From the NCBI RefSeq assembly GCF_016807805.1, contig NZ_CP063362.1, positions 1,426,001 through 1,490,000 on the forward strand: DNA of 64,000 nucleotides, written 5' to 3'. A program made the translations under genes and the position numbers. This DNA is from Xanthobacter dioxanivorans. Its GTDB lineage: Bacteria > Pseudomonadota > Alphaproteobacteria > Rhizobiales > Xanthobacteraceae. The notes under the pieces are model-generated. The model searched no databases. It saw nothing but the letters and a program-made list of their open reading frames with translations, and was not told the origin of the DNA. Positions 29,212 to 62,535 of this stretch are shown in pieces; the stretch's first letter is position 1; each line of letters starts with the position of its first letter.

Positions 29212-31514
29212 GTGCGCAAAGTTCGGCCCAACCGGTTCGGGTTCCGACCGGTCCGTATCCGCTTGGTCTGTGCGGCCCTCCTCGCCGGCGCGCTCGGCGC
29301 GTGCTCCTTCGTGCCGGAAGACACCCGCTCGCCCGGGGTCTTCGAGCAGGTGCGTTCGCTGGACCTGTCCCCGCGCCAGACCCGGCCCGTGCCCGCGACG
29401 CAGGAGATCCCCGACGATCGCCGGGCGGTCGAATATTACGCCACCAACGCCGGCCCGCCGGTCTCCGATCCTTCCGAAACCGGGGTGGCCGGCCGCGCCG
29501 GAACCGGCGCCGGGCCTGACGGCTACGACCTCAATTTCGACAACACGCCGGTGACCACGGTGGCCAAGGTGGTGCTCGGCGACATCCTCGGGGTGGGCTA
29601 CGTGATCGACCCGCGCGTGCAGGGAACGGTCAGCCTCGCCTCGGCCCGGCCGGTGCCGAAGGCCGACCTGCTCTACGTGCTGGAAAGCGCGCTCCGGTCC
29701 AACGCCGTGGCCATGATCCGCGACGCCGCGGGCTATCGCCTCGTGCCCCTCTCCGAAGCCGCCGGCGGCACCACCGAGGTCGGCGCCGCGCGCGCCGAGC
29801 CTGGCTTCGGACTGTCGGTGGTCCCTCTGCGCTACGTCTCGGCCGAGGCCCTCATGCCACTTCTGGACAGCTTCGCCACCCGCGCCGGCGCGGTGCGCGC
29901 CGATCCCGGCCGCAACCTGCTGCTCATCCAGGGCACGGGCGCCGAGCGGCAGGCGGCCATCAACACCGCCCTGTCCTTCGACGCCGACTGGATGCGCGGC
30001 CAGTCGGTGGGCATCTATCCCGTGCGCAACGGCACCCCCGAGCCGCTCATCTCCGAGCTGGAGAGCCTGATGGATGCGGGCGAGAGCGGGCTGAGCCACA
30101 AGCTCGTCAAGTTCCAGGCCATCGGCCGGCTCAACTCCATCATGGTCGTGGCCCGCAAGCCCGAGCTGCTCAAGACGGCGGCCACCTGGATCACCCGCCT
30201 CGACCGCTCCGACACCACGGTCGGGGTGCGCGTCTATCGCCTGCGCTACGGCGAGGCGAAGCAGACGGCGAAAGTGCTCAACGACCTGTTCATGGGCGGC
30301 GGGTCGAGCGGCCTCGACCAGGCGGCGAGCCAGATCGCCCCCGGCTCCGGCGCGTCCCTCACCTCCGGCGGCGGGGCGGATGGCGATGGCACGGGCGGCG
30401 GCGGAACGAGCCCCTCGGTGCAACAGCGGCTCGGCATCACCCCGCCAGCGCAGGCGCCCGGCACCGCCGGGGCGAAATCCACCGGCACGGACGCGGAGGG
30501 GCCCCTTCGGGCACGGGACAAGGCACCGGATCAGGCGGCGGAACCGCCCTGCTCCCCGGCGTGAGGATCACCGCCGATACGGTGAACAACTCGCTGCTGA
30601 TCTTCGCCAGCCAGGAACATTACCGCATCATCGAGCGCACGCTGATGCAGCTCGACCAGCCGCAGCTCCAGGTGGCCATCGAGGCCACCGTGGCCGAGGT
30701 GACGCTGAACGACACGCTGGCCTACGGCGTGCAGTTCTATCTCACCTCCAACAATCTCGGCCTCGGCAGCAACAACGGCTCGGTGCTGAACACCTTGTCC
30801 AGCACCGTCACCGACCAGGCCATCAACCGCGTGCTGCCCGGCTTCAACCTGCTCATCGGCCGCGAGAACCAGCCGAGGGCCATCCTCGACGCCCTGCACA
30901 CGGTCACCGACGTGAAGGTGCTGTCCAACCCCTCGGTGGTCGTGGTGGACAACCAGAAGGCGACGCTGCAGGTGGGCGACGAGGTCCCGGTCTCCACCGG
31001 CAGCGCCACCGTGCTGACCTCGTCCAACACGGTGGTCAACACCATCGAGTACAAGAACACCGGCATCATCCTGCACGTGATGCCGCGGGTGAACGTGAAC
31101 GGCCAGGTGCGCCTCGACATCGAGCAGGAGATCTCCAACGTCACCCAGACCCAGGCCACCGGCTCGTCGAGCTCCAGCAGCTCGACGCTCACCCCCACCG
31201 TGTCCCAGCGCAAGGTAAAGAGCACCATCGCCGTGGCCAGCGGCCAGACGGTGCTGCTGGCCGGCCTCATCAGCGAGCGCCGCGATGGCGTGCGCCAGGG
31301 CGTGCCCATCCTCGACCAGATCCCCGGCGTCGGCGACGCCTTCGCCCATACCACCGGCACGGTGAAGCGCACCGAGCTCATCATCTTCATCCGCCCGCAG
31401 ATCATCCGCGACAACACCGACGCCCACACGGTGGCGGAGGAGCTGCGCGCCAAGCTGCGCGGCACCATCGGCACCCTGCCGGGCGGGCCGCAGCCGCCCT
31501 TGCTGAACCGATGA
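29212..31514 (+). pseudogene. gspD: Type II secretion secretin GspD, interrupted by a one-base frameshift
   Basis: Two adjoining frames together encode a normal secretin: 29212-30564 (signal and N domains) and the frame ending at 31514 (secretin channel). The N-terminal part has lipobox LLAGALGAC (Cys31), suggesting a lipidated secretin, then the N0 domain NFDNTPVTTVAKVVLGDILG and repeated N1-N3 folds. The C-terminal part has the secretin core (LSNPSVVVVDNQKATLQVGDEVP, VLLAGLISER). The break lies in the Gly-rich linker before the channel. Adding one G to the run at 30498-30501 gives ...DAEGAPSGTGQGT... and a 767-residue protein, so an assembly error is likelier than gene loss. The start is GTG 29212; TTG 29188 is possible. 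It overlaps the Sel1 gene as ATGA. Confidence 0.88.
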
Positions 31515-32086
31515 GCGCCGGAATGGACATTCCTCCCGGCCCCGGCCCGAAGCGGCGCGAGGGGCGCCGGCGGCTTCCGGCGCGCGCAACGGTGCTGACG
31601 GCGGTGCTGGCCGTGGCGCTGGCTCTCCCGGCGGCGCCGGCCGCGCAGGCCGGCTCGGCGGCCCGGGCCTTCGCGCTCTATGCCCGTGGCGACTATCGCG
31701 CCGCGGCGACGCTCCTGACCCCGCTGGCCTTCGCCGGCGAGGCCCGCGCCCAGGGGCTCCTCGGCTTCCTCTATGAATACGGCAAGGGCGTGCCGCAGAA
31801 TTACGGGCTCGCCGCCCAATGGTACATGTGCGCGGCCGAGCAGGGCGAAGCAACGGCGCAGTACCTGCTCGGCCTCCTGTACGACAAGGGGCACGGCGTG
31901 CCGCGCGACGTGGTGCTGTCGCAGAAATGGCTGATCCTCGCCGCCGCCCGGGCCGACCGGCACGAGCGCGACGTCTTCACGCGCCTGCGCGACGCGGTGG
32001 CCACCAAGATGAGCCCGGCGCAGCGCGCCGTCGCCCAGGAGCTCGCCATCCGATGGGTCCCGGCGCCGCCCCTGCCGATGCCCTGA
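31511..32086 (+). CDS. Exported Sel1-repeat protein linked to the secretion cluster
   Basis: A 191-residue protein with a signal peptide (AVLAVALALPAAPAAQAG). It has at least two Sel1-like repeats: ARAQGLLGFLYEYGKGVPQNYGLAAQWYMCAAEQGEA and the next unit starting TAQYLLGLLYDKGHGVPRD. Such repeats form alpha-solenoid protein-binding surfaces. Its ATG overlaps the gspD stop as ATGA, so the two are translated together. A role in secretin assembly or in pilotin-like escort is an inference from coupling only; no lipobox is visible. Confidence 0.82.
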   Translation: MSAGMDIPPGPGPKRREGRRRLPARATVLTAVLAVALALPAAPAAQAGSAARAFALYARGDYRAAATLLTPLAFAGEARAQGLLGFLYEYGKGVPQNYGLAAQWYMCAAEQGEATAQYLLGLLYDKGHGVPRDVVLSQKWLILAAARADRHERDVFTRLRDAVATKMSPAQRAVAQELAIRWVPAPPLPMP

Positions 32087-32138
32087 AGGCGTCCGCCGAG
32101 GCCGGGTTCAGCCGTGGCCGCGCTCGGTGCAGCCCCGC

Positions 32139-33722
32139 TCAGTGACCGCCGCCGCCTCCCCCGCCGCGCGCCGGGCGGCGCATGAGCGGGGTCGCCACCA
32201 CCAGGGCCAGGAACAGGAAGGTGAGCAGGTAGAACACGTCGGCGAACGACATCACCAGCGCCTCGCGCCGCACCAGCAGCGACATCTGCTTCAGGCCGGC
32301 GGACGCCGCCTGCGAGCCGAGGCCGGAGAAGGCGGCGGTCATGGAATCGATCCGCTCCAGCGCCGCCGCGCTGCCCCACTGCACATGCTCGTGCAGCCGG
32401 GCGAGATGCAGGTCCCAGCGATTGTTGAGCACGGTGTTGATGACGGCGAGCCCCACCGCGCCGCCGAGGTTGCGCGTGAGGTTGAACAGGCCGGAGGCGT
32501 TCTTCAGGTGCGCCGGGGGCAGGGTGCCCAGCGACAGGTTGTTGATGGGGATCATCGCCATCATCAGCGAGACGCCGCGCAGGATCTGCGGAATGAACAG
32601 CTCCCAGAAGTCCCAGTCCTTGGTGATGTCGGTGACCCACCAGGTGCCGAGCCCGAAGCCGACGAAGCCCAGGCCGATCATCACCCGCGGGTCGAGCTTC
32701 GTCATCAGCCGCCCGGCGATGGGGGCGGTGAGGAACATGGCGATGCCGGTGACGAACATGGTCTCGCCGATCTGCAGCGCCGAATAGCCCCGCACCCGGC
32801 CGAGATAGATGGGATAGAGATAGGTCAGCCCGTAGAGCCCGATGCCCATGATGAAGCTGAAGGCCGAGCCGATGGCGAAGTTGCGGTTCTCGAAGGCGCG
32901 GATGTCCACCACCGGCTCCTTCGCCATCAGCACCCGGGCGAAGAAGGCGATGGCCGAAACGCCGCAGAGCACGGCGAAGGCGATGATGTACCGGTCCTCG
33001 AACCAGTCGTTGGTCGGGCCTTCCTCCAGCACGAACTCGAGGCTGCCGAGGAAGCCGGCCATGAACAAAAGGCCCCACCAGTCGAAGCGGTCGAGCAGGC
33101 CGAAGTCCGGCTCGTCGAAGTCGATCAGGGTCACGGCGGCGAGCACCACGAAGATGCCGGGGATGACGTTGATCAGGAACAGCCAGTGCCAGGAGAACAG
33201 GTCGGTGAGATAGCCCCCCACCGTGGGGCCGATGGTGGGGGCGAGCGTCGCCACGAGGCCGATCATCGGCGCGACGATGGGCTGCTTCTCCTTCGGGAAC
33301 ACCGCATAGGCGGAGGCGAACACGGTGGGGATCATGCCGCCGCCGAGGAAGCCCTGGAGCGCGCGGTAGGCGATCATCTGCTCGATGGAGGTGGCGGTGG
33401 CACACATGAAGCTCATGAGCGTGAACCCCGCCGCCGAGGCCGCGAACAGCCAGCGGGTAGACAGCGCCCGCGACAGGAAGCCCGAGAGCGGGATCATCAC
33501 CACCTCGGCGATGAGGTAGCTGGTCTGCACCCAGGAGATCTCGTCGGACGAGGCGGCAAGGCCCGCCTGGATCTCGGCGAGGGAGGCGGAGACGATCTGG
33601 ATGTCCAGGATCGCCATGAACATGCCGAACACCATGCACAGGAAGGCGAACATGCGCCGCCCCTCCACCCCCGGGGCGGCGGATGCATGGGTCGCGCTGG
33701 TCGACGTGATGCTGGCTGACAT
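32139..33722 (-). CDS. emrB: DHA2-family MFS drug efflux transporter (EmrB/QacA type)
   Basis: A 527-residue protein with 14 predicted transmembrane segments. It has the DHA2 signature LDIQIVSASLAEIQ in helix 1, the motif-A region PLSGFLSRALSTRWLF and motif C GPTVGGYLTD. It should export hydrophobic compounds by proton antiport together with the adjoining HlyD-type adaptor. The ATG at 33722 is chosen because GGAGGG lies 6 bases upstream; a GTG two codons earlier would sit right on that site. It is 27 bases downstream of emrA. Control is probably by the divergent TetR protein. Confidence 0.9.
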   Translation of the reverse strand: MSASITSTSATHASAAPGVEGRRMFAFLCMVFGMFMAILDIQIVSASLAEIQAGLAASSDEISWVQTSYLIAEVVMIPLSGFLSRALSTRWLFAASAAGFTLMSFMCATATSIEQMIAYRALQGFLGGGMIPTVFASAYAVFPKEKQPIVAPMIGLVATLAPTIGPTVGGYLTDLFSWHWLFLINVIPGIFVVLAAVTLIDFDEPDFGLLDRFDWWGLLFMAGFLGSLEFVLEEGPTNDWFEDRYIIAFAVLCGVSAIAFFARVLMAKEPVVDIRAFENRNFAIGSAFSFIMGIGLYGLTYLYPIYLGRVRGYSALQIGETMFVTGIAMFLTAPIAGRLMTKLDPRVMIGLGFVGFGLGTWWVTDITKDWDFWELFIPQILRGVSLMMAMIPINNLSLGTLPPAHLKNASGLFNLTRNLGGAVGLAVINTVLNNRWDLHLARLHEHVQWGSAAALERIDSMTAAFSGLGSQAASAGLKQMSLLVRREALVMSFADVFYLLTFLFLALVVATPLMRRPARGGGGGGGH

Positions 33723-33749
33723 GGACACCCCTCCGACAAGGCCCGACGT

Positions 33750-34946
33750 TCAGGTGTCGGCCCGCATGTCGGCCCGCGTGTCGACCACGGCGGTCACCGA
33801 CATGCCCGGCCGCAGCTCGCGGGCGGCGAGCGCCCCCCGATCGAGGACGATGCGCACCGGGATGCGCTGGACGATCTTGGTGAAGTTGCCGGTGGCGTTC
33901 TCCGGCGGCAAAAGGCTGAACACCGAGCCCGAGGCCGGGGACACGCTGAGCACGGTGCCTGCGAAGTCGTGGTCCGGATAGGCATCCACGAAGACGCGCA
34001 CCTTCTGGCCCGGATGCAGGCGGCCGAGCTGGGTCTCCTTGAAGTTGGCATCCACATAGACGCCTTCCAGCGGCACGATGGCCGCAAGGCGCGTGCCCGG
34101 CTGGACCAGCTGGCCGACCTGGACCGCGCGGTTGCCCACCACCCCGTCGATGGGCGCGCGCACGATGGTGAAGTCGAGGTCGCGCCGGGCCTGGTCGCGG
34201 GCGGTGCGGTACTCGTCGAGCACGTGCGCCGCCTCGATCCGCTGGGCCTTCAGCACCGCGATGGCCGCTTTGGCGGAGGCGACCTGCGCCTTCCCGGCCT
34301 CCACGCTCGCCTGCGTCTTGTCGCGGTCGGCGCGGGCGTTGTCGAGGGTGGCGCGGCTGGCATAATTGGAGCTGGCGAGCTTGTCCTGGCGCTCGAACTC
34401 GAGGCCCGCCCGCAGCAGATCCGCCCTGGAGGCGGAAAGCTGCGCCTCCGCCTGGTCTACCGCTGCCTCGGCGGCTTTCTCCTGCTCGTCGAAGCGGGAG
34501 AGAGCGGCTTCCTGGGTGGCGATCTTGTTCTCGGCGCCGCGCAGGGCCAGCACATAGTCCCCGTCGTCGATGCGCGCGATGACGTCGCCCGCCTTCACCC
34601 ACTGGTTCGCGGCCACCTCCACGCTGCGCACATAGCCGCCCACCTTGGCGGCGAGCACCGAGGTATCGGCGCTCACATAGGCGTCGTCGGTGGAGATGTT
34701 GAACCGGCCGAAGCGCCACCAGTCGAGGCCGTACCAGCCGCCGCCGGCGAGCAGCAGCACCGCGATGGCGCCGAGCACCAGCGACCGCCGTGAGCGCTTC
34801 TTCTCCGGCGCTGCGGGCGCGGCCGGCGGGGCCTCCGGGGGCATGCCCTCGACGTGCCGGCTCTTGAGAACGGTGATGGGCGCGGGCGCGGAATCCGCCT
34901 TCTGCGGCTCCTTCGGTCCCGCAGGAATCTGCTCTGCCTGTGCCAC
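33750..34946 (-). CDS. emrA: HlyD-family membrane fusion protein (EmrA type)
   Basis: A 398-residue adaptor. It has a Pro/Ala-rich cytoplasmic N-terminus, one transmembrane segment (SLVLGAIAVLLLAGGGWYGL) and a lipoyl half (NISTDDAYVSADTSVLAAKV). A long alpha-helical hairpin (about residues 140-240, rich in Ala/Glu/Lys) and a second lipoyl half with DFTIVRAPIDGVVGN follow. It bridges EmrB to an outer-membrane channel. The GTG start at 34946 has GGAGG 5 bases upstream; a GTG four codons earlier overlaps that site and is less likely. First gene of the emrAB operon. Confidence 0.9.
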   Translation of the reverse strand: MAQAEQIPAGPKEPQKADSAPAPITVLKSRHVEGMPPEAPPAAPAAPEKKRSRRSLVLGAIAVLLLAGGGWYGLDWWRFGRFNISTDDAYVSADTSVLAAKVGGYVRSVEVAANQWVKAGDVIARIDDGDYVLALRGAENKIATQEAALSRFDEQEKAAEAAVDQAEAQLSASRADLLRAGLEFERQDKLASSNYASRATLDNARADRDKTQASVEAGKAQVASAKAAIAVLKAQRIEAAHVLDEYRTARDQARRDLDFTIVRAPIDGVVGNRAVQVGQLVQPGTRLAAIVPLEGVYVDANFKETQLGRLHPGQKVRVFVDAYPDHDFAGTVLSVSPASGSVFSLLPPENATGNFTKIVQRIPVRIVLDRGALAARELRPGMSVTAVVDTRADMRADT

Positions 34947-34973
34947 GGCACCCTCCACATGTGCACCGCTTGA

Positions 34974-35030
34974 AACTGAACGGTTCAGTTCTATGCTGGG
35001 CGACCATAGATTGAACTGAACGGTTTAGTC
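34974..35030. promoter_or_regulatory. Two TetR operators in the emrA/tetR intergenic region
   Basis: A perfect 17-base palindrome AACTGAACGGTTCAGTT lies at 34974-34990, and a near copy AACTGAACGGTTTAGTC at 35014-35030. Their centres are 40 bases apart, about four helical turns. They lie between the divergent emrA (start 34946) and tetR (start 35087) genes. The CTGAAC-G-GTT(C/T)AG form is typical of operators of TetR/AcrR repressors of efflux pumps. Confidence 0.88.
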
Positions 35031-35086
35031 AAATTCTTTGACAGCGGGGGCTGAGGTCCCTATGCAAAGGGATCAGGACGGTAGAC

Positions 35087-35761
35087 ATGAGCCATTCCAG
35101 CATGAGCAGCGCGGCACCGGATTCCGGACCGGTGGCGGACGCGCCGGAGATGCGCGAGCCCGAGGCCAGGAAACGCCGCGAGATCATCGACGGCGCGCGC
35201 CGCGTGTTCTTCGACAAGGGCTTCGACGGCGCCAGCATGGACGAGATCGCCCGCGCCAGCAGCGTCTCGAAGGCAACCATCTACGTCTATTTCGACAGCA
35301 AGGAAGGCTTGTTCCAGGCGCTGGTGGAAACCGACCGCCGGAAGTCCGCCGAGCGCCTGTTCGAGTTCGACGACAACGACCCCGATACCGAGGCCCTGCT
35401 GCGCCGCATCGGCGTCTCCTTCATGACCATGATGGTGCAGCCGGACCATATCCGGCTGGTTCGCATGGTGATCGGCGCCGCCGAGAAATTCCCCGCCGTG
35501 GGCCGCACTTTCTTCGAGACCGGCCCCTGCCACGGCGGGCGGCGCCTTGCCGCGCTGTTCGCCCGGCAGACGCAGCTCGGCCACCTCGCCGTGGAGGATT
35601 GCGAGGCCGCCGCCTTCCAGTTCTTCAACCTGTGCCAGGGCAACCTCGCCAAGGGGCTGCTGTTCGGCCTCGACGAGCAGCCGACGCCGGAGCAGATCCA
35701 GGCCACCGTCTTTGGCGCGATCCGCGTGTTCCTCGCCGCCTACGGGGTGAAGCGGGACTGA
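35087..35761 (+). CDS. TetR/AcrR-family repressor of the emrAB operon
   Basis: A 224-residue protein with an N-terminal helix-turn-helix domain, RREIIDGARRVFFDKGFDGA then MDEIARASSVSKATIYVYF, and a TetR C-terminal ligand domain typical of AcrR relatives. It is divergent from emrA, with two matching palindromic operators at 34974-34990 and 35014-35030, so it most likely represses both emrAB and itself until a pump substrate binds. An AGGACGG element precedes the ATG. The ligand is unknown. Confidence 0.92.
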   Translation: MSHSSMSSAAPDSGPVADAPEMREPEARKRREIIDGARRVFFDKGFDGASMDEIARASSVSKATIYVYFDSKEGLFQALVETDRRKSAERLFEFDDNDPDTEALLRRIGVSFMTMMVQPDHIRLVRMVIGAAEKFPAVGRTFFETGPCHGGRRLAALFARQTQLGHLAVEDCEAAAFQFFNLCQGNLAKGLLFGLDEQPTPEQIQATVFGAIRVFLAAYGVKRD

Positions 35762-35777
35762 CGCCGCGCGAAGGGCC

Positions 35778-36638
35778 TCAGAACGGGAGCCCGCCGAACC
35801 ACGCCCCGAAGAAGCCGGCGTAAAGCTCCGGCGCCTCGAGATTCATGGAATGGCCGATGCCCGGCACCGCGATGAAGCGGCAGTCCGGCATCCGCTCCGC
35901 CATCTCCTTCAGGTCGCGCTCCGCGATCACGCCGTCCAGCATGCCCCAGACCACCAGATGGGGATGGATGATGCTGCCCATCTGCGCCGCCAGCGCCCCG
36001 CTCCTCGCCTCCTTCGTCAGCGTGTCCGGCGTGCCGAACCAGATGCCGTCGGAGACCGCGAACACCTGGTCGATGATGCGCTCGAACAGCGGCCCGCGGG
36101 CGCCCGCGTCGGGCCGGAAACGGGCCGGCCCCTCGACGAGGCTTTCCGGCACGAACAGGCTCGGGGCGGTATAGGCCATGATCTGCCGGGTCAGGTCCCG
36201 GCTCTTCTTCATCTCGCCGAAGAAGGCCGTCTTCTCCGGCGGGAAATCGATGCCCTGCGGCCCCACCGGCGACAGGGAGAAGACCCGGCCGAACCGGCCC
36301 GGCTGCTTCAGGATCATCCGGGTGGAGATGATGCCGCCCGTGGAATGGGTGGCGAGATGGCAGAAATCCACCCCCAGCACGTCCAGCGCCGCCAGCATGT
36401 CGTCCGCATGCCGGGCGATGGAATAATTGGAGAAATCGGGCAGCGGGTCCGGCTTGTCGCTGTCCCCGCACCCGCGCCAGTCGATGGCGATGGTGCGCAC
36501 GCCGCGCGGGAAGTGCGGCGCGGCGAGCTCGATCCACTCCTTGCTGGCGAGGTTGCCGTGGATGAAGAGGACGACGGTGTCGCCCTCCCCCCATTCGCGA
36601 AAGGCGAGCTCCAGCTCGCCGACCCGCAGCTTCCGCAT
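35778..36638 (-). CDS. Alpha/beta hydrolase with an unusual nucleophile elbow
   Basis: A 286-residue alpha/beta-hydrolase fold protein: oxyanion motif VVLFIHGNLASKEW, then IDWRGCGDSDKP, and the catalytic His in PGIGHSMNLEAP. The nucleophile elbow reads ATHSTGG, so the usual first Gly of GxSxG is replaced by Thr while the Ser and second Gly remain. No signal peptide. The start at 36638 has GGAG 6 bases upstream, overlapping the stop of the previous gene (8 bases apart), so it is probably co-translated with the two-domain hydrolase. Substrate unknown. Confidence 0.87.
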   Translation of the reverse strand: MRKLRVGELELAFREWGEGDTVVLFIHGNLASKEWIELAAPHFPRGVRTIAIDWRGCGDSDKPDPLPDFSNYSIARHADDMLAALDVLGVDFCHLATHSTGGIISTRMILKQPGRFGRVFSLSPVGPQGIDFPPEKTAFFGEMKKSRDLTRQIMAYTAPSLFVPESLVEGPARFRPDAGARGPLFERIIDQVFAVSDGIWFGTPDTLTKEARSGALAAQMGSIIHPHLVVWGMLDGVIAERDLKEMAERMPDCRFIAVPGIGHSMNLEAPELYAGFFGAWFGGLPF

Positions 36639-36646
36639 GGCCGCTC

Positions 36647-39160: not shown

Positions 39161-39432
39161 TCTTGTTTCCTCCCGGCGGGTTGGTTCGCCGCCGGTGAGA
39201 ACAGCACGCGGATGCCACGGACGGAAGGGGGATGCGGCCCCGGCTCGATCCCCGTGGGCGCGGGCGATCCGCAAGCCCACGCCCGCCGATACCGCGTCGG
39301 CGCTGGCCGCGGCCCCGGCTGAAAAGCGCGGCATCCCCCCGCGGGCCCGGCACATGCCGATGCGGACATGGCGGTGCGGACATGGCGGCGCCTTAACCGC
39401 TTCGCAACGCGGTGTCCGCCAAGGTGCCGGCC
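39161..39432. other. Divergent intergenic region with a 14-bp tandem duplication
   Basis: 272 bases between the two-domain hydrolase (minus) and the extensin-like gene (plus). TGCGGACATGGCGG is repeated head to tail at 39361-39374 and 39375-39388. No clear promoter or gene is seen. Confidence 0.55.
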
Positions 39433-41347: not shown

Positions 41348-41433
41348 TCAGGTTTTTCTCTTAAGTCGAATTTCAGCCCGACACGCCCTCTGGCTATGCG
41401 CGGGGGATGTGCCCAAGAAACGGACGGCCCATC

Positions 41434-42960: not shown

Positions 42961-42994
42961 ACGCGGCTGTCACCGAGCGGATGCGCCGGCAGGC

Positions 42995-43687: not shown

Positions 43688-43726
43688 GGGGATCTCCTCA
43701 ACGTCTGGATGGGACGGGGCGGTGTC

Positions 43727-43891: not shown

Positions 43892-43958
43892 GAAGGCGGC
43901 CGAGCCGCCTCGCGCACTTCTATACGTCACGGCGCCGCGTTGGCACCAGCGGACGTCC

Positions 43959-45241: not shown

Positions 45242-47311
<2,070 letters not shown>

Positions 47312-47514: not shown

Positions 47515-47551
47515 AACCTCTTGTGCCCGCCGCAACGGGAGACCTCGTGCC

Positions 47552-48427: not shown

Positions 48428-48449
48428 AGGCGTTGGCCTTCGGTCGGGG

Positions 48450-49510
48450 TCAGATGAACAGGCCGCGCCGCGCGAACAGCGGCGAGCGCTCGCCGTGGCC
48501 GGCGGGCTCGAGGTGATAGCGGGCGACCCGCGCCACCTCGTCGCGCGAGCCGAAGACGAACGGCACGCGCTGATGCAGGCTGGTGGCGCAGAGGTCGAGG
48601 ATGGCCCCCCGCCCGTCGATGGCCGTGCCCTGGGCCTGCTCCATCAGGAAGGCCACCGGAAAGCCTCGTAGAGCAGGCGCAGGCGGCCGTGGGTGTAGCC
48701 CTTCCGCCCGTCGCCGGGATAAAGATAGATGCCGCCGCGCTGGAAGATGCGGTGCGCGTCGGCCACCATGGAGGCCACCCAGCGCATGTTGAAGTCGCGC
48801 TCGCGCGGGCCCTTCCGGCCGGCGAGGCAGTCATCCACATAGGCGCGGACGGGGTCGTCCCAGTGGTGGTAGTTCGACATGTTGATGGCGAACTCGGCCG
48901 CCCCTTCCTTCACCTTCACGTCGGCATTCACGAGGCGGAACGTGTCGGTGCGATCGAGGGCGAAATGCCAGGTGCCGGCACCCACGGTGAGCATCAGCGC
49001 CGTGTGCGGACCATAGACCACGTAGCCGGCGGCGAGCATGTCGCGCCCGTTCTGCAGGAAGGCGGCCACCTCGCCCGCGGCCGATCCGTCCCGGCGCGGG
49101 AAGACGGCGAAGATGGTGCCCACCGAGATGCAGGTGTCGATGTTGGACGAGCCGTCCAGCGGATCGATGGCCACCAGCAGCGGCGCGTCCGCGTCGAGCA
49201 GCACCGGCGCGTCGTTCTCCTCCGAGGCCACAGCGGCCACCGGGGCCTGCCTCAGGGCGTCGATGACCATGTCGTTGGAGATGATGTCGAGCGCCTTCTG
49301 CCCCTCCCCGGCCTCGCCCGACGACAGCGTGCGGGCGAAATCGCCGGCGAGCGGACCCTCGGCGATGCGCCGGGCGAGCTGGGTCGCGCCGACGGCAAGA
49401 GCCGCGAGGGTCGTGGCGACATCGCGGCGGCGCGCGTCCTCCCCCGCCCATTCCTCGAGGGCGCAGGCAAGTGTGATTCCCGGTGCGGCGCGATGATCGG
49501 CGGTGGGCAT
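48450..49510 (-). pseudogene. cbbF: Fructose-1,6-bisphosphatase, interrupted by a one-base frameshift
   Basis: The first frame (49510 down to 48644) encodes the bulk of a class I FBPase: [11 protein letters not shown], the metal/active-site motif [12 protein letters not shown], and [17 protein letters not shown]. It then ends abruptly in FRWPS. The second frame (48656 to 48450) supplies the missing C-terminus, [16 protein letters not shown] and [17 protein letters not shown]. Restoring one C on the coding strand (the GG at 48658-48659 should be GGG) joins them as [13 protein letters not shown] and gives 353 residues, the family length. An active Calvin operon needs this enzyme, so an assembly error is the better explanation. 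ATG 49510 has GGGAGACG upstream. Confidence 0.9.
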
Positions 49511-49587
49511 GGCGGTCGTCTCCCTGAGGGTCTTCTCCGCGCGACCCGTTCGGCGGGTCGTCATCGGCGTTTTTGGTCCCGCCGCCT

Positions 49588-50541: not shown

Positions 50542-50611
50542 GACTCGAACCTCGGCGTTAAGTGGCGCGGTGGGAACGTCCGCGCTGGTGAAGCTTGGGC
50601 AAGGGGGCCGG

Positions 50612-51013
50612 TCAGCCGGCGGCGTACTGCCGGTGCTGGAGGGCGTAGCGCTGGGTGCGGCCGGGGCCTTCGGTGCGCTCCAGGCGGAAGCCGTCCTCGA
50701 CGGCCGGTCGCTGGACGATGAAGGACAGGCGTACGGTCTCCCAGCCGCGGGTGGAATCGAAGGCGTTCACCCGCACATAGAGCCCGGGATTGGCGCTCCG
50801 GCAGGCTTCGACCTCGCCGTAGACGCCGGCGGAGTCGCGCAGGTCGAACATGGGCGGGCCCCACATTTCCCAGTAGGTGTTCCGGGGGTGCGGGTCGTCC
50901 GTGTATTCCACCGAGACCGCCCAGCCCTGATCCAACGCATACTGGATCTGGGCCTTGACCTGGGTCGGGGTGAGGTCCGGCAGAAAGGAGAAGGTGCCCT
51001 GGGTGATGCGCAT
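50612..51013 (-). CDS. cbbS: RuBisCO small subunit (form IC)
   Basis: A 133-residue small subunit with the red-type start [15 protein letters not shown]. It has the family blocks [19 protein letters not shown] and [14 protein letters not shown], and the extended C-terminal beta-hairpin of form IC/ID proteins. It caps the L8S8 holoenzyme. GGAGGACACC precedes the ATG, which is 11 bases after the cbbL stop. Confidence 0.98.
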
Positions 51014-51024
51014 GGTGTCCTCCT

Positions 51025-52586
<1,562 letters not shown>

Positions 52587-53582: not shown

Positions 53583-53615
53583 GGCGCGCGTTCCCGCGCC
53601 GTCCGCTGCGCCGCG

Positions 53616-54434: not shown

Positions 54435-54438
54435 GGGG

Positions 54439-55479
54439 TCAGACCAGCGCTATGCGGGCGGGATCAAGGATAAGACCCACCGCCGCCCCGGGGGCGAGGA
54501 GCATGTCGGCGGGCGCCTCGGCGACGATGCGGACGCCGCCCGTGCCGGCGAGGATCACACGCTGGCGCGCGCCCTGGAACTCCACCTGCCGGACCTCGAA
54601 CACCAGCCCGGCTTCAGGCGGCGGGCACAGCCGCGCGGCTTCCGGGCGGAACAGCAGGCGGGCGACGGGCCGGTCCGGCCCCGCGACCGGGACGATGCCC
54701 GCCTCCGTCGCGAACCGGCCGCCCTTCACCGCCCCGTCGAGCCGGTTGGTGATGCCGACGAAATCGGCGACGAAATCATCGGCCGGCTGGAAATAGACCT
54801 CCCGCGGCGTGCCCACCTGGGCGATGGCGCCGTTGCGCATGACCACGATGCGATCCCCCAGCGCCAGCGCCTCCGCCTGGTCGTGGGTGACGTAGACGGC
54901 GGTGATGGCGAGGCGCCGGAGCAAGGCGTCGATCTCGCCGCGCAAATGCTCGCGCAAGGCCGCGTCGAGCGCGGTGAGCGGCTCGTCGAGCAGGATCGCC
55001 CGCGGCCGCACCGCCAGCGCGCGGGCCAGCGCCACCCGCTGGCGCTGGCCGCCGGAGAGCTGGTCGATGCGCCGCTCGGAAAGCTGGCCGATGCGCATCA
55101 TCTCCAGCACGCCGGCCGCCTGCGCCCGCCGCTCCGCCGGGCCGACGCCGCGCACCCTCAGCCCATAGGCCACGTTGTCGACGACGCTCATGTTGGGAAA
55201 CAGGGCATAGGACTGGAACACCATGCCCACGTTGCGCTTCTCGATGGGCAGAGCGGTGACGTCCACCCCGTCGAACAGAATGCGCCCACCGGCATCGGGC
55301 GTCTCCAGCCCGGCGATGAGGCGCAGCAGCGTCGTCTTCCCGCAGCCGGACGGGCCGAGCAGCACCAGCGTCTCCCCCGCCCTCACCTTGAGGTCGAGGG
55401 GGGTGAGCGCGCGGGTGCCGTCGGCGAAGGTCTTGCCGCATCCCGAAACGGTGATGGCGGCGCCGGATGCGGCGGTCAT
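54439..55479 (-). CDS. ABC importer ATPase (PotA/FbpC/PhnT-like)
   Basis: A 346-residue ATP-binding subunit with Walker A LLGPSGCGKTTLLRLIAGL, Q-loop MVFQSYALFPNMSV, signature LSGGQRQRVALARAL, Walker B AILLDEPLTALDA and switch His VYVTHDQAEAL. A C-terminal TOBE domain starts around residue 270. It drives uptake with the two permeases upstream. Its ATG overlaps the permease stop as ATGA (55476-55479). Confidence 0.93.
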   Translation of the reverse strand: MTAASGAAITVSGCGKTFADGTRALTPLDLKVRAGETLVLLGPSGCGKTTLLRLIAGLETPDAGGRILFDGVDVTALPIEKRNVGMVFQSYALFPNMSVVDNVAYGLRVRGVGPAERRAQAAGVLEMMRIGQLSERRIDQLSGGQRQRVALARALAVRPRAILLDEPLTALDAALREHLRGEIDALLRRLAITAVYVTHDQAEALALGDRIVVMRNGAIAQVGTPREVYFQPADDFVADFVGITNRLDGAVKGGRFATEAGIVPVAGPDRPVARLLFRPEAARLCPPPEAGLVFEVRQVEFQGARQRVILAGTGGVRIVAEAPADMLLAPGAAVGLILDPARIALV

Positions 55480-56282
55480 TTCGTCCCTCCCGAGGTTGCG
55501 CGGCCGAACACCTGGAGGGCGACGAGGAGGGGAACGATCATGACGAAGAAGACCAGGGTATAGGCGCTCGCGATCTCGAGGCGCATGGAGGCATAGCTGT
55601 CGGCAAGGCCCACCGGCAGCGTCTTGGTGAGCGGCGTGTGCAGCATCCAGGTGAGGTTGAACTCGCCGATGGAGAGCGTCACCACCATCAGCGCCCCGGC
55701 AAGGATGCCGCCCCGCGCATTGGGCACCACCACATGGAAGAAGCGCTGCAACGGCGAGGCGCCGAGCGAGGCCGCCCCCTCCTCCAGCGTGCGCACGTCG
55801 ACGGCGGCGAGCACCGCCATCACCGCCCGCAGCATGAAGGGCAGCGTGTAGAGCACGTGGCCGGTGAGGATGAAGAGCGGGCTCATGCGGAAGTCGCGGA
55901 AGCCGCCATAGGCCAGGATCAAGGCGAGGGCCAAAGCGAGGCCCGGAATGGCGACGGGCAGCGTCACCACCTCCTCCACCAGGCGCGACAGGCGCGAGGG
56001 CCGCCGCGCCAGCGCCCAGGCGGCGGGCACGCCGAGCAGCAGCGTCACCCCCAGCGTCCCGAGGGCGATGGCGATGGAGAGCGCAATGGTGCCGGAATAG
56101 AGATTCAGCACCTCGCCGATCCAGTTCAGCGTCAGGCCGGAGGAGGGCCCGCGGAAATAGCTCACCGTGAATCCGGCGAGAATGGACGCCCCCGCCGGCA
56201 CCATCAGGAAAGCGCACGCCAGGAGGGTGACGAGCAGCTGGAAGGCGAAGGTGAGGCGGTGGGGCGGAAGGCCGGATCTCAT
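55476..56282 (-). CDS. ABC importer permease 2
   Basis: A 268-residue membrane protein with six predicted helices and the permease coupling (EAA) loop, here EEGAASLGASPLQRFFHVVVPNARGGI. It belongs to the type I importer permeases of the polyamine/iron/phosphonate group. It overlaps the ATPase gene by 4 bases and starts 4 bases after the first permease. Confidence 0.9.
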   Translation of the reverse strand: MRSGLPPHRLTFAFQLLVTLLACAFLMVPAGASILAGFTVSYFRGPSSGLTLNWIGEVLNLYSGTIALSIAIALGTLGVTLLLGVPAAWALARRPSRLSRLVEEVVTLPVAIPGLALALALILAYGGFRDFRMSPLFILTGHVLYTLPFMLRAVMAVLAAVDVRTLEEGAASLGASPLQRFFHVVVPNARGGILAGALMVVTLSIGEFNLTWMLHTPLTKTLPVGLADSYASMRLEIASAYTLVFFVMIVPLLVALQVFGRATSGGTK

Positions 56283-56286
56283 GGCA

Positions 56287-57105
56287 TCACCCCGCCGCCG
56301 CGACGCCGGAGCCGGCGAAGTTGCGGGCCAGCGCCAGCACCGCCCAGGTGATGGCGCCGAGGGCGAGGGACAGAGCGGCGGCGGTGGCGAAGTTCGCGTT
56401 GAGGGTGAACTCCGTATAGATGGTCATGGCCAGCACATCGATGCGCGTGGCCAGGGTGAAGGCGGTGCCGAAGGCGCCCATGGCAGTGGCGAAGGCGATG
56501 GCACCGGAGGCCATGAGCGCCGGCGCGATCCCCGGCAGGGTCACGTCGCGCAGCACCTCCAGCCGGCCGGCGCCGAGCGAGCGCGCCGCTTCCTCCAGCG
56601 CCGGATCGAGCTTCTCCGCCGCCGCCATGAGGGTCACCAGCACCCGCGGCAGGGAGAAATAGACATAGCCGGCGAAGAGGCCCGCCATGGAATAGGCGAA
56701 CACCCAGCGCCCGAGCCCAAGGCTCATGGAGAGGCTGGACAAAAGCCCCTGCCGCCCCGCCAGCAGGATGACCATGAAGCCCACCACCACGCCGGGGAAG
56801 GCGAGGGGCAGGGTGAGCAGGGAGACGAGGAGCGCGCGACCGGGGAAACGGTTGCGCGCCAGGAACAGGGCCACCACCGTGCCGGCGGCCAGCGTCGCCG
56901 CCGTCACCGCCGCCGACAGGAGCAGGGTGGCGACGAGGGTCGCGAGGTGCCGTGGATTGGTGAGGATGGCAACGTATTCCGCCAGGCCGTTCGGCCCCGC
57001 GCCGGCGACGCCCACGAGCCGCACCAGGGGCAGCACGAAGAAGGCCGCCACGAACAGGAACAGCGGCAGCAGGAACAGGCGGGCGAGGCGGTCGGCGCTA
57101 TGCAT
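56287..57105 (-). CDS. ABC importer permease 1
   Basis: A 272-residue membrane protein with six predicted helices and the EAA loop EEAARSLGAGRLEVLRDVTLPGIAPAL. It pairs with the second permease downstream (4-base gap). It is separated from the binding-protein gene by a 252-base space holding an intergenic repeat. Confidence 0.9.
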   Translation of the reverse strand: MHSADRLARLFLLPLFLFVAAFFVLPLVRLVGVAGAGPNGLAEYVAILTNPRHLATLVATLLLSAAVTAATLAAGTVVALFLARNRFPGRALLVSLLTLPLAFPGVVVGFMVILLAGRQGLLSSLSMSLGLGRWVFAYSMAGLFAGYVYFSLPRVLVTLMAAAEKLDPALEEAARSLGAGRLEVLRDVTLPGIAPALMASGAIAFATAMGAFGTAFTLATRIDVLAMTIYTEFTLNANFATAAALSLALGAITWAVLALARNFAGSGVAAAG

Positions 57106-57173
57106 GGCGGTCTTTCGATGGATGCCATGCCCGGCGGGTCAGGGCATGCGGTGTTCGAGCGGGGCCGCGTCCC

Positions 57174-57342
57174 GTGCCCCGGCCGACCGGAGCGTCAGCG
57201 GAGGGAGAGCCGGGACCCAGCGCAACGAACCGCCGAAGGCCTGCCGAACCCGCCGCTGCCGGGGATACGGTCTGCTCCGCAGGATTCGTGTGCTGGGTCC
57301 CGGCTCGGCGCTCCGCCTTCGGCTGCGCTTGGCCGGGACATG
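57174..57342 (+). repeat. Intergenic palindromic repeat, copy 3 (inside the ABC operon)
   Basis: The left arm, 57174-57224, contains CCCCGGCCGACCGGAGCGTC and GGAGAGCCGGGACCCAGCGC. The right arm, about 57289-57342, is an imperfect inverted copy with GCTGGGTCCCGG (57292-57303) exactly complementary to CCGGGACCCAGC (57210-57221). Same family and orientation as 43727-43891. Confidence 0.8.
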
Positions 57343-57357
57343 CGGGCGTTTCTGTTC

Positions 57358-58380
57358 TTACTTCACCGCGTTCAGATACGCTTCCGAGAACGCCTTCTGG
57401 GCGGCTTCCATCTTGGCATAGTCCACCGGCTTGGCGCGGGCATAGTCGGAGGCCGGGAGGAAGCGGCTGGCCACGTCCTTCGGCAGCTCGATGTTGCGCG
57501 CCGGGCGCAGATAGGCCTTCGCCCACATGCCCTGCCCCTTGTCGGAGAGCACGTAGTCCAACACCTTCTTCGCCGCCTCGGGATGCGGCGCGCCCTTCAC
57601 CATGCTCATGACGTAGGGCACCACCACCGTGCCCTCGCACGGAATGACGAAGACGAAATTGCCCATGTCCGAGTAGCGGGCGCGGTAGGCGTTGAAATCG
57701 TAGTCGAACAGGATCGGGATCTCGCCCGAGACCACGCGGGCGTAGGAGGTCTGCTTCGGCACGATGGGCTGGTTCGCCTGCAGCTTGCGGAAATATTCGA
57801 TGCCCGGCCTGAAGTCGTCGAGGGTGCCGCCCAGCGCGCCATTCACCGCCACCGCGCCCACATAGCCGACGAAGGCGGAGGTGGGATCGAGGTAGCCGAC
57901 GAGGCCCTTGTATTCGCTCTTCAGGAGGTCCGCCCAGCAGGCCGGTACCGGCGTCTTGCCGAGCGCGTCCTTGTTCACGAACAGGCCGAGGGTGCCCGAA
58001 TGGATGGTGAACCAGTTGCCGTCCGGATCCTTCAGGCCCGCCGGGATGTCGGCAAAACCCTTCGGCTCGTAGGGCTGGGTGACGCCCGCATCCTTCGCCT
58101 TGATGCCGAAGGTGACGCCCAGATAGGCCACGTCCGCCACCGGGCTCGCCTTCTCCGCGATGATCTGGGTCAGGGACTGGCCGGAATTCTTGTTGTCCTG
58201 CGGCACGTCAATGCCGAGGTCGGCCTTGATCGCCTTCAGCATGCCGCCCCAGTCGGCCCATTCGGGCGGGCAATTGTAGCAGATGGCGTCCGCCGCCACG
58301 GCCGGGCGCGCCGGCACGAGGGCGACGGACACGGCGGCAAGGGCACTCGCGGCGAGAACACGGGTCAGGATGCGGCGCAT
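57358..58380 (-). CDS. ABC importer periplasmic substrate-binding protein
   Basis: A 340-residue protein with a signal peptide (LAASALAAVSVALVPARPAVA) and the fold pattern of extracellular solute-binding proteins of the iron/polyamine/phosphonate group: LTQIIAEKASPVADVAYLG, ACWADLLKSEYKGLVGYLDP, and the final DYVLSDKGQGMWAKAYLRPAR. The two cysteines in ICYNCPPEW may form a disulfide. It is the first structural gene of the importer operon, following the LacI regulator by 4 bases. Ligand unknown; the linked phosphodiesterase suggests an organophosphate. Confidence 0.9.
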   Translation of the reverse strand: MRRILTRVLAASALAAVSVALVPARPAVAADAICYNCPPEWADWGGMLKAIKADLGIDVPQDNKNSGQSLTQIIAEKASPVADVAYLGVTFGIKAKDAGVTQPYEPKGFADIPAGLKDPDGNWFTIHSGTLGLFVNKDALGKTPVPACWADLLKSEYKGLVGYLDPTSAFVGYVGAVAVNGALGGTLDDFRPGIEYFRKLQANQPIVPKQTSYARVVSGEIPILFDYDFNAYRARYSDMGNFVFVIPCEGTVVVPYVMSMVKGAPHPEAAKKVLDYVLSDKGQGMWAKAYLRPARNIELPKDVASRFLPASDYARAKPVDYAKMEAAQKAFSEAYLNAVK

Positions 58381-58384
58381 GGCG

Positions 58385-59452
58385 TCAGCCTCGCGGGTTG
58401 GGGGTCGGGGGTGAAGGCGGGTTGCGCGGGACGGCCCGCTTGGGCGCGGCGGCGAGCGTGCCGCCGGGGCGCAGGGTGAAGGGCAGGCGCTCGACGCGCG
58501 GTCCCTCGCCCTCCTCCAGCATGGCGAAGAGCATCTCCACGGCGCGCTCGCCCATCCGCCGGGTGGGGGTGTCCACGGTGGCGAGGCTGGGGTTCATGGC
58601 CCGCCCCAGGGCGATGCCGTCGAAGCCGGCGAGGGACACGTCGCGCGGCACCGCGAGGCCGAGCTCGCGCAGCGCGCCCGCCACCGAGAGGGCCAGCAGG
58701 TCGTTGGAGCACAGGGCCGCGGTGGGCCGGCCGGCGCCGGCGAACAGCCCGGCGAGGGCGGCGGCGTGGCTCGGGGCGTCGCCCAGATAATCGAGCTCCA
58801 CCGGCGCCTCGGGAGCGAGGCCGGCGGCTTCCATGGCGGCGCGGTAGCCCTCATGGCGGCGCCGCGAGCGGTCGGAGGTGGAGAAGCGGCCGGCGAGATA
58901 GGCGATGCGGCGGTGCCCGGCGGCGATCATCGCCCCGGTCAGCGCATGGGTTGCGGCCGCATTGTCCACGCACACCGCCGCGCGGGCGTCCGCGGCCGGC
59001 TCATTGTGGATGAGCACGTAGGCGATGCCCTCGGCGTCGAGCAAGTCGAGGGTGGGATTGTGATCGGCGTCGGCGACGGTGAGGAGCAGCCCGGCCACGT
59101 TCTGCGCCACCAGCGTTTCCACCAGCTCCGCCTCGCGGCCGGGCTCGTAGTCCGTGGCGGTAAGCAGCAGGGTATGGCCGCGCCGCCGCGCCTCGCCCTC
59201 CATGCCGGCGACGGAGGCCGCGAAGACCGGGTTGGTGAGGCTGGGAATGACCACGCCCAGGGTGCGCATGCGCAGGGTCTTCAGCGCCCGGCCGATCTCG
59301 CTGGGGCGGAAGCCGAGCTCGGCGACGGCCGTCCGCACCCGCGCTTCCACCTCGGAGCTGGTGGGGGCGGAGCGGTTGATGACGCGGCTCACCGTCGCGA
59401 TGGAGCAGCCGGCGCGTTCGGCAACCGTGCGGATGGTGACGATGCGGGCCAT
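58385..59452 (-). CDS. LacI-family regulator of the ABC importer operon
   Basis: A 355-residue LacI/GalR protein with the helix-turn-helix TIRTVAERAGCSIATVSRVIN and a hinge with LKTLRMRTLGVVIPSL. The periplasmic-binding-protein-like effector domain contains FDGIALGRAMNPSLATVDTP. It starts the operon (the binding-protein gene follows 4 bases later), so it probably controls itself and the importer. ATG 59452 has AGGA upstream, and a LacI-type half-palindrome lies at 59489-59502. The C-terminus is Pro-rich. Confidence 0.92.
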   Translation of the reverse strand: MARIVTIRTVAERAGCSIATVSRVINRSAPTSSEVEARVRTAVAELGFRPSEIGRALKTLRMRTLGVVIPSLTNPVFAASVAGMEGEARRRGHTLLLTATDYEPGREAELVETLVAQNVAGLLLTVADADHNPTLDLLDAEGIAYVLIHNEPAADARAAVCVDNAAATHALTGAMIAAGHRRIAYLAGRFSTSDRSRRRHEGYRAAMEAAGLAPEAPVELDYLGDAPSHAAALAGLFAGAGRPTAALCSNDLLALSVAGALRELGLAVPRDVSLAGFDGIALGRAMNPSLATVDTPTRRMGERAVEMLFAMLEEGEGPRVERLPFTLRPGGTLAAAPKRAVPRNPPSPPTPNPRG

Positions 59453-59488
59453 GATCGATCCTGCGGCGGGCGATGCCGGATGACAACG

Positions 59489-59502
59489 CGAAACCGTTTT
59501 CA
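59489..59502 (-). promoter_or_regulatory. Candidate LacI-family operator
   Basis: Read on the minus strand the site is TGAAAACGGTTTCG, an imperfect palindrome (TGAAA...TTTCG) of the kind bound by LacI/GalR proteins. It lies 37 bases before the start of the lacI-type gene, in the right place for autoregulation. Confidence 0.55.
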
Positions 59503-59631
59503 GGATCGATACCCACCCCACGCGACGGGCGTGTGACGGCGGGCCCAAAGGCAACAGCGGGCGTGCCGAGGCACGCCCGCTGCGGGGAAGGGACAATCAA
59601 GGGCGGCGAGCATCCCTTCCTTCGCGTGGCC

Positions 59632-60305
59632 TCACCGGGGCGGGAGGCGATCATCCTTCGGTTCGTGGGGCGGACCCATCGGCGGCGGGCCCATGGGAAG
59701 AGGCGGGGGCAGGAGAGGCGGGGGCAGGAGCGTCGGCTCGATGCGCGCCAGACGCTCCAGCTGATCCGGTGTCAGCCGCGCTTTCAGAACCTCCACCGCC
59801 TGCGCCAGCCGGACACCGGCCTGGCCGGCCTCTGCCACCCGCGCGGCAAAGGCCGAGGTCAGGGCGAAGGCATCCGCCGGCGAAGCCGCGCCAACCCGGT
59901 CGGGCGGCGGCGGGGCCACGGCGGGCGGACCGGGCGGCGGCGGAACCGCCGCCTGCAGCGCATCGGTGAAGTCGCGCCACGCATCGAGCTGTCCGGCGCG
60001 GATCCCGATCGCGGTTTCCGCCGAGGCGAGGCTGCGGGCGAGGGCCAGCGGACCCGGCGGCGGCCGGCGTCCATCATGGGGGCCGCGCGGCCCCGGCGGG
60101 CGGGACGCTTCTTGCGGGCGGGCCTCGGCCGAAGCTCCCTGCATCTCCAGCGCAGCCATGCGCACGGGCTCCTCGCCCGAGGCCTGCGGCAGCCGGTCCT
60201 GACTCTTCCTCATGGGCGCCGCGGGCGCGGCGAGAAGGCCCGCCCCAGAAGGGGGAGGATGAGCGCCCCGGCGAGGATCGCCTTGCGGAGTGGTGTCTGC
60301 GGCAT
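59632..60305 (-). pseudogene. Spy/CpxP-like (LTXXQ) periplasmic protein, interrupted by a one-base frameshift
   Basis: The frame from ATG 60305 encodes a signal peptide ([20 protein letters not shown]) but stops at 60210. The body continues in another frame down to 59632, with the helical region [20 protein letters not shown] and the LTxxQ motif [15 protein letters not shown], then a Pro-rich tail. Adding one base to the C-run at 60243-60246 fuses them as [17 protein letters not shown], a perfect signal-peptide end, and gives 224 residues. Without it, only a 193-residue protein from ATG 60213 lacking an export signal can be read. It is divergent from an OmpR-type two-component system, as cpxP is from cpxRA, so it may be a periplasmic sensor-inhibitor. 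Confidence 0.75.
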
Positions 60306-60536
60306 CGAGTGCCTCCTCAGAACCGTTGATGGGGGCACTGTGGCGGGCGCAGGTTGCTGCCGAAGGTCTCCATATGTCCAAAAGTCACGGCAGCGCCCGG
60401 ATTTGTGACGCAATGTTGCTGGACTGCGGTGGGCAATATTCGGATGCACGGCAAGCGCGCCGCGTCGGCCGGCTCCTTTATTCTCGAAGGCGCTGCGGCT
60501 TCGGCCGCCGGTCCAGGAAGCGGGAGGAGCAAGCGG

Positions 60537-61256
60537 GTGGAGGCGGGTGCGCACATCCTCGTCGTCGACGACGATCTCGAAATCCGCCGGCTGCTCGGGC
60601 GCTACCTGGCGGCGCAGGGCTTCCGGGTGACGACGGCGGGCGACGGGCGCGAGATGCAGGAGAAGCTCGCCACCCAGCGCATCGACCTGGTGGTGCTCGA
60701 CCTCATGCTGCCCGACGCCTCCGGGCTCGACCTGTGCCGCGGCCTCCAGGCCGGCCCGCGCACGCCGGTGATCCTGCTGACCGCCCTCAAGGAGGACGTG
60801 GACCGTATCATCGGCCTCGAGATCGGCGCCGACGACTATCTCGGCAAGCCCTTCAACCCGCGCGAACTGGTGGCGCGCATCCGCGCCGTGCTGCGCCGCT
60901 CCGGCCCGCCGGAGGCGACGCCCGCCGATACCCGGGCCTACCGCTTCGCCCGCTTCCGCGCCGAGCCGGAACTGCGCCGGGTCACCGACGAGGCAGGCAG
61001 CGAGATACCCCTCACCGGCGCCGAGTTCGACCTGCTCATGGCCTTCCTGGAGCGGCCGGGGCGCATCCTGTCCCGCGACCAGCTGCTCGACATCACCAAG
61101 GGCCGCGAGGCCGGCCCCTTCGACCGCTCGGTGGACGTGCTGGTCAGTCGCCTGCGGCGCAAGCTCGGTGACCAGGGGACGTTCCAGATCCTGAAGACCC
61201 TGCGCAACGGCGGCTACCAGCTCGCGGTGCGGGTGGAACAGGAGGACGCGGTGTGA
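60537..61256 (+). CDS. OmpR-family two-component response regulator
   Basis: A 239-residue protein, the standard OmpR length. Its receiver domain starts HILVVDDDLEIRRLLG and contains the phosphorylated Asp in VVLDLMLPDASG and the conserved Lys in YLGKPFNPREL. The C-terminal winged helix contains GAEFDLLMAFLERPGRILSRDQLL and RSVDVLVSRLRRKL. The GTG start at 60537 is well supported by GGGAGGAG 7 bases upstream; longer frames have no such site. It overlaps the kinase gene as GTGA. Confidence 0.94.
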   Translation: MEAGAHILVVDDDLEIRRLLGRYLAAQGFRVTTAGDGREMQEKLATQRIDLVVLDLMLPDASGLDLCRGLQAGPRTPVILLTALKEDVDRIIGLEIGADDYLGKPFNPRELVARIRAVLRRSGPPEATPADTRAYRFARFRAEPELRRVTDEAGSEIPLTGAEFDLLMAFLERPGRILSRDQLLDITKGREAGPFDRSVDVLVSRLRRKLGDQGTFQILKTLRNGGYQLAVRVEQEDAV

Positions 61257-62535
61257 GAACCCTGCGCGCGCAGGTCACCGCCATCCTCGTGGTGGCGGTC
61301 CTGGTGGTGATCGCCCTCGCCAACAGCGCGTCCTTCTTCCTCTCCCGGCCGCCCGAGCTGCCCTTCGGCGGCATCGGCGCGATCGCCCGCCACGTCGCCG
61401 AGACCGCCGACCTGGCCGCCGCCGTGCCCGCCGGCACGCCGGCTCCCGGCCTCTCGACCGCCCCCCGGCCGGCGCGATCGCCGAGGAGCCCACCCGCCGC
61501 CTCGCGGAGGCCCTCGCCCAGAACGGCCGGAGCCTTCGGGTGCGCGTGGTGCATCCCGAGGGCGGCGGCCCGCTGGTGACCGCGGCCGGCCTGCCGGACG
61601 GACGCTGGCTGGTGATCCGGGATGCCGGTGGCCTGCCGCCGCTGCCGCCCGGCCCGCCCGGAGGCCCCTTCGGCTTTGCCATCTGGCTCACCTGCATGGT
61701 GGCGGGCGTGACCGGCGTGGTTGTCCTCGTCGTGCGGCGGCTGACCAAGCCGCTCTCGCTGATCGAGGAGGCGGTGACCCGCATCGGTCCGGACGGCGAG
61801 CCGCCGGTGCTGCCGGAGGAAGGCCCGGCGGAGGTCCGTGCCGCCGCCGCGGCCATCAACCGCCTGTCGGCCCGCCTCAAGTCGGCCATGGACAGCCGCA
61901 TGCGCATCGTGGCCGGCGCGGCGCACGATCTGCGCACGCCGCTGACCCGCATGCGCCTGCGGGCCGAGTTCATCCCCGACGACGAGGAACGGGTCCAGTG
62001 GCTCGCCGACCTCGCCGAGCTCGACCGCATCGCCGACAGCGCCATCCGCCTGGTGCGCGAGGAGGTGGAAGGCGGGCCGGAGGAGGTGGTGCGCCTCGAT
62101 GTGCTGGTGGAGGGGGTCGTCGCCGAGGTGGAGGAAGCCCGCTGCCCGGTCCGCCTCGTGGACGCCGAACCGGCAAGCGTGCGCGGGCGCCCGCTCTCGC
62201 TGCGGCGCGCGACGCGCAACCTGGTGGTGAACGCGGCGACCCACGGCGGCGGCGCCCGGGTGGCGGTGCGGCAGGACAACGGCCGCGCGCTGCTGCTCAT
62301 CGAGGATGACGGGCCGGGCATTCCCGAGGCCCTCATGGGGCAGGTGTTCGAGCCGTTCTTCCGGGTGGACCCGGCGCGCCACGTGAAGATTCCCGGCGCG
62401 GGCCTCGGGCTTGCCATCGCCAACGAGATCATCTCGCGGCATGGCGGGCGCCTCGTGCTCGCCAACCGGCCGGGGGGCGGCCTGCTTCAGCAGGTGGAGC
62501 TGCCGGCGGTGACGCGGGACGGGGCCGGCGGCTGA
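61253..62535 (+). pseudogene. Two-component sensor histidine kinase, interrupted by a one-base frameshift
   Basis: The first frame (from GTG 61253) encodes a transmembrane helix (TAILVVAVLVVIALANSASFF) and the start of a periplasmic domain, then drifts out of phase and ends at 61579. The second frame, ending at 62535, has a second transmembrane helix and HAMP linker (VVVLVVRRLTKPLSLIEEAV). It also has H-box GAAHDLRTPLTRMR, N-box RNLVVNAATHG, G1 EDDGPGIP, F-box FEPFFRVD and G2 GLGLAIAN. Making the C-run at 61461-61466 seven bases instead of six joins them (...LSTAPPAGAIAEEP...) as a 427-residue EnvZ/CpxA-type kinase. It is coupled to the response regulator by GTGA. The signal sensed is unknown. 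Confidence 0.9.

Follow-up and report, generated by a model that had tools for sequence, protein, structure and literature searches.

Four genes split by single missing bases on a Xanthobacter chromosome probably reflect scattered under-calling at short G/C runs

Four genes in one stretch of a Xanthobacter chromosome, namely gspD, cbbF, a Spy-like gene, and a sensor kinase gene, are each split over two reading frames, and we consider it highly probable that all four are whole in the living bacterium and that the breaks stem from G/C runs under-called by one base at scattered places in the assembly. The stretch, referred to here as the window, comprises 64,000 nucleotides (C1:1426001-1490000) of a genome of 6.65 Mb in five contigs, which we assign to the environmental genus Xanthobacter. 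According to this explanation, a consensus caller would read a short G/C run one base short, which would leave each of the four sites lacking one base in the given sequence, mostly beside short G/C runs, and the slip would be scattered over the chromosome, affecting a small share of the G/C runs in genes of many functions. We infer base calling rather than real mutation as the cause. Since breaks of this kind are also present in other parts of the assembly, sequencing error is their most likely origin, which would make them a sequence-quality artefact and not a biological novelty.

A sequence-only reading of the window had proposed that each of the four genes lies in two frames with one base missing and a total length of 3n+2, and this was confirmed by the spans, by Pfam, and by the relatives. 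The length from start to final stop equals 2 modulo 3 in all four cases, with 2327 bases for gspD (29188-31514), 1115 for cbbF (48450-49564, minus strand), 674 for the Spy-like gene (59632-60305, minus strand), and 1283 for the kinase gene (61253-62535), and apart from the single break in each gene the pieces are open. The comparison of the four sites with close relatives, which had also been suggested, was made at the protein level, and at every site the Xanthobacter relatives have a single uninterrupted frame. The assertion that each break sits at a G/C run was correct for three genes only: within 12 bases of the break, G/C runs reach 4 bases in gspD, 5 in the Spy-like gene, and 6 in the kinase gene, but only 2 in cbbF.

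The upstream frame of gspD (29188-30564, plus strand; ORF list, Pfam, and relatives) encodes the N0 domain and Secretin_N, and the downstream frame (30561-31514, plus strand; Pfam and relatives) encodes the remaining Secretin_N and the Secretin domain. The break, located by relatives and DNA alignments at 30495-30505 on the plus strand, adjoins the G/C run of 4. Matches in the gspD search included named Xanthobacter records with 80-90% protein identity. One frame crosses the break in 22 of 22 Xanthobacter-type loci of the query set, which correspond by matching to about 12 genomes, several of them present twice. Of 11 DNA alignments, 9 gave a net -1 modulo 3 within 60 bp, the exceptions being L103 and L108, and the region of the break has many other indels. 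A second gspD copy (C1:5193716-5195912, L115) has an open frame of 767 amino acids and 85% DNA identity to the window copy; in none of the relatives compared was there more than one long gspD match.

In cbbF, the upstream frame (48644-49564, minus strand; Pfam) contains the FBPase N-terminal domain and the start of the C-terminal domain, and the downstream frame (48450-48662, minus strand; Pfam and relatives) contains the rest, with FBPase_C positions 3-77 in one frame and 77-126 in the other. The break, located by DNA alignments at 48656-48668 on the minus strand, has no G/C run longer than 2 within 16 bases. It is crossed by one frame in 11 relative loci (trimmed ORFs). Two cbbF copies in the relative G012 (L008 and L161) yielded no cross-frame pair in the protein scan, of which L161 agrees at the DNA level. 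The window cbbF is one base short against all 25 aligned sequences that span the site, a set that includes paralogues. A second cbbF-like gene is located at C1:5156155.

Because Pfam assigned no family to the upstream 108 amino acids of the kinase or to the Spy-like frame, the splits of these two genes were judged from relatives. The upstream frame of the kinase gene (61253-61579, plus strand) was recognized from relatives, and the downstream frame (61540-62535, plus strand) has Pfam matches to HAMP, HisKA, and HATPase_c, all in the downstream half of the protein. The break coincides with the G/C run of 6 at 61461-61466 (plus strand, from relatives), and it is crossed by one open frame in 6 distinct relatives and at 3 loci in a second scan, the remaining relatives lacking coverage of the upstream part. 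The adjoining response regulator gene (60537-61256, plus strand; Pfam) is intact. In the Spy-like gene, the body lies in a frame listed as open from 59632 to 60381 (minus strand) and a signal-like N-terminus lies in the other frame at 60225-60305 (minus strand), with the break near the G/C run of 5; in at least 4 distinct relatives, body and signal-like N-terminus form one ORF.

No further frame breaks were found in the homology-covered part of the window (47.5 kb and 50.6 kb of 64 kb in two scans). Cross-frame pairs near 50.6 and 51.0 kb, each with one supporting locus, were read as gene junctions. The sequence-only reading had also suspected the starts of gspI and of a PPIase gene of being misplaced, and this found no backing, as no cross-frame homology was detected at either start: the alignment of the PPIase ORF with its relative begins at the same trimmed start in both, and the first 10 residues of gspI are unaligned to its relative, so that the gspI start may still be off.

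If homopolymers were systematically under-called, as that reading had also proposed, more breaks should be present elsewhere in the assembly and fewer in relatives; both were found, which supports the interpretation. We examined 796 kb from other parts of this chromosome (the genome being G000) and, as controls, 1,590 kb from three relatives (1,190 kb from G012, 200 kb from G001, and 200 kb from G003) with a frame-switch model for which long ORFs from the four genomes served as training set (20 stretches in the case of G012) and which was run on all stretches; the window was left out of the counts because it had been chosen for its breaks. At a score of at least 20, there were 16 clean switches in our genome and 7 in the controls (binomial p = 0.0004), corresponding to 2.0 versus 0.44 per 100 kb, some of the counted switches being pairs within one gene. 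When only stretches with a single switch were counted, the numbers were 7 and 2 (p = 0.008). At a score of at least 8, 27 clean switches in our genome compare with 24 in the controls, weak calls being common everywhere. The scan still calls real gene overlaps, and its counts are low, because only one of the four window breaks was caught at score 20, and two of the four as clean at score 8. At L139:3113 (plus strand) in G000 and at L207:17824 (plus strand) in G012, one and the same frame switch occurs in almost identical sequence context; it could represent a conserved shift or simply two genes that overlap.

Among clean switches with a score of at least 12, 14 of 20 in our genome and 3 of 18 in the controls have a G/C run of at least 4 within 12 bases (Fisher p = 0.001), compared with a fraction of 0.149 for random positions; this count is unpicked, and the 18-site table that provided the run lengths for individual breaks is hand-picked. 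The one-base-short class makes up 13 of the 16 clean switches with a score of at least 20, versus 3 of 7 in the controls. Overall, G/C runs are not shorter in our genome than in the relatives, which is as expected if only a small share of them is misread, and this test is therefore unhelpful. The breaks thus have the marks of under-calling: a net one-base change in an otherwise intact gene, an association with homopolymers to which cbbF is the exception, a bias toward missing bases, and a spread over the genome that is rarer in other genomes, with controls that are not zero.

From homology searches with tblastn alone, the case would be thin. With stop-to-stop ORFs as queries, a first scan gave 10 clusters in G000, 6 in G012, none in G001, and 1 in G003; in many of these clusters, the first piece was located at the N-terminal end of the query and was taken as sequence before the gene start. 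With start-trimmed queries at 60% identity, there were 6 clusters in 174 kb of G000, a length that includes 47.5 kb of the window, and none in 191 kb of G012. These 6 clusters correspond to three window breaks, a homospermidine synthase gene, a gspO gene, and one gene-junction call; start trimming lost a break in trbB that is visible in the untrimmed scan. With looser identity and a stricter E-value, 7 clusters were obtained in G000 and none in G012, G001, or G003, the homospermidine synthase break of the 60% scan being absent from this one. Clusters dropped from the G000 results were L134 (sequence before a start), window position 50613 (a gene junction), and L133 (a true remnant).

Several breaks outside the window were followed individually. 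In DNA alignments, cobN (L158, near 16324) is one base short against 11 of 11 relatives, and net changes of -1 modulo 3 were found in 13 of 13 alignments for gspO, which belongs to a second gsp cluster and is broken by a one-base-net shift (L156:15902-16530, near 16215), in the one aligned relative for the homospermidine synthase gene, and in the one aligned relative for trbB. The break in an aceE-like gene was unconfirmed by the sole aligned relative (net +1, 70% identity). According to Pfam, a protein is split over two frames at 8 of 19 picked frame-switch sites outside the window and at none of 5 picked control sites in G012. All 24 sites were hand-picked, partly by eye for readable protein ends, and because of this, 8 of 19 is not a rate. 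At seven of the 8 sites, a single Pfam family extends over two frames (chromate transporter, acyl-CoA dehydrogenase, gspO, hydantoinase B, cobN, the aceE-like gene, and an OYE-like oxidoreductase), with one of the two pieces of gspO and of the aceE-like gene under the Pfam cut-off; at the eighth, TetR_N and TetR_C_2 occupy different frames. Two of the 19 sites proved to be two different adjoining genes (NicO with an AraC regulator, and DAGK with TerC), and at several sites no family was found on one or both sides. The acyl-CoA dehydrogenase gene (L160:4480-4647, plus strand) has two opposite, mutually offsetting frame switches 167 bases apart.

In cysE, positions 1-152 of the 162 of TIGR01172 were matched before the frame was left; since a second full-length cysE copy is present in the genome, this break is no proof from essentiality. 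The second frame of the cysE tail, and likewise those of degP, mltG, and an HMG-CoA lyase-like gene, was recognized from residues read by eye. A survey of tRNA synthetases, which covered few genes, showed no break, and a survey of ABC transporters, in which 150 of 335 candidates were scored, was unable to show broken members.

The density of breaks in the window, 4 in 64 kb, is higher than the 2.0 clean switches per 100 kb (score of at least 20) outside it, or about 1.6 per 100 kb after subtraction of the control rate. If the density were 1.5 to 2.5 per 100 kb, a random stretch of 64 kb would contain four breaks with a probability of 0.02 to 0.08, and it is the windows in which breaks are visible that a reader reports. 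By a rough estimate, the same densities would amount to about 100 to 170 breaks in the genome.

Real loss had to be weighed against under-calling. Both gspD and cbbF have relatives in this genome, so the bacterium could tolerate a real loss, and the second copies (the long gspD frame, the cbbF-like gene, and the full-length cysE) are what an ordinary decay of spare genes would lead one to expect, with one gspD or cbbF copy dying. Decay of this kind would bring several lesions and relaxed selection, and we found one break per gene, with the pieces otherwise open, and low dN/dS in the pieces compared, on either side of the cbbF and gspD breaks. Compared with five relatives, dN/dS was 0.16-0.18 upstream and 0.23-0.30 downstream of the break in cbbF, 0.30-0.33 and 0.26-0.33 in the two pieces of gspD, and 0.19-0.22 in the downstream part of the kinase gene; the comparison covered both pieces of gspD and cbbF and the downstream part of the kinase gene. 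Intact neighbouring genes gave 0.07-0.25, gspD evolving somewhat faster than those compared. The separated pieces with dN/dS values therefore evolve under selection. In addition, the second gsp cluster has a break of its own, in gspO. True decay in this genome is seen, by contrast, in the remnant of a periplasmic binding protein (L133:14789-15564, minus strand), in which a frame break is accompanied by a stop and by a gap of about 16 residues. We regard decay of spare genes as quite improbable for the four genes.

That the sequenced clone really underwent a recent burst in which G/C runs lost single bases, for example as a mutator or in laboratory culture, is improbable as well, if a little less so. 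Replication slippage also makes one-base losses at G/C runs, and the low dN/dS of the compared pieces fits such a burst, since it implies that the breaks, if real, are recent; on the other hand, such a burst would require numerous null mutations at once, in genes that have nothing to do with each other. Mutators deficient in mismatch repair are known for slippage with one-base changes at mononucleotide runs, a feature that the breaks described here share. Unlike in those mutators, mutS and mutL look whole: each has one match, in open frames of 990 and 710 amino acids, respectively, neither gene being found broken, and a mismatch-repair mutator is therefore unlikely. There is a small chance that dozens of short G/C runs in this strain have truly and freshly lost one base despite whole-looking mutS and mutL; a high-G+C autotroph would then be prone to slippage in a way that has gone unrecognised. 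Phase variation or programmed frameshifting at G/C tracts, which the short runs beside three of the four breaks might suggest, has a negligible probability: the runs are short, the genes are unrelated, and no relative compared at the protein level has the break in common.

Under-calling, the reading that we favour, has precedents in long-read assemblies, in which homopolymer indels turn genes into apparent pseudogenes, with 1101 frameshifted pseudogenes in the worst draft (PMC12007338). As in such assemblies, bases are mostly missing beside homopolymers, the effect is scattered over the genome, conserved genes are hit, and relatives are whole; compared with the worst draft, the density here is far lower, at about 2 clean switches per 100 kb. 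If the breaks are errors, annotators would wrongly call dead cbbF of the Calvin cycle, gspD of type II secretion, the sensor kinase gene, cobN, and others, and caution is advised: gene loss, lost autotrophy, or lost secretion should not be read from this assembly without reads.

Another secretin gene is present on a 51 kb contig (C4; L003 and L004), where matches at C4:23793-23990 and C4:23951-24304 lie in two frames by coordinates. It gave one plasmid match, to a secretin and CpaD-type pilus region of Ancylobacter pratisalsi, which is distant, with 76% identity.
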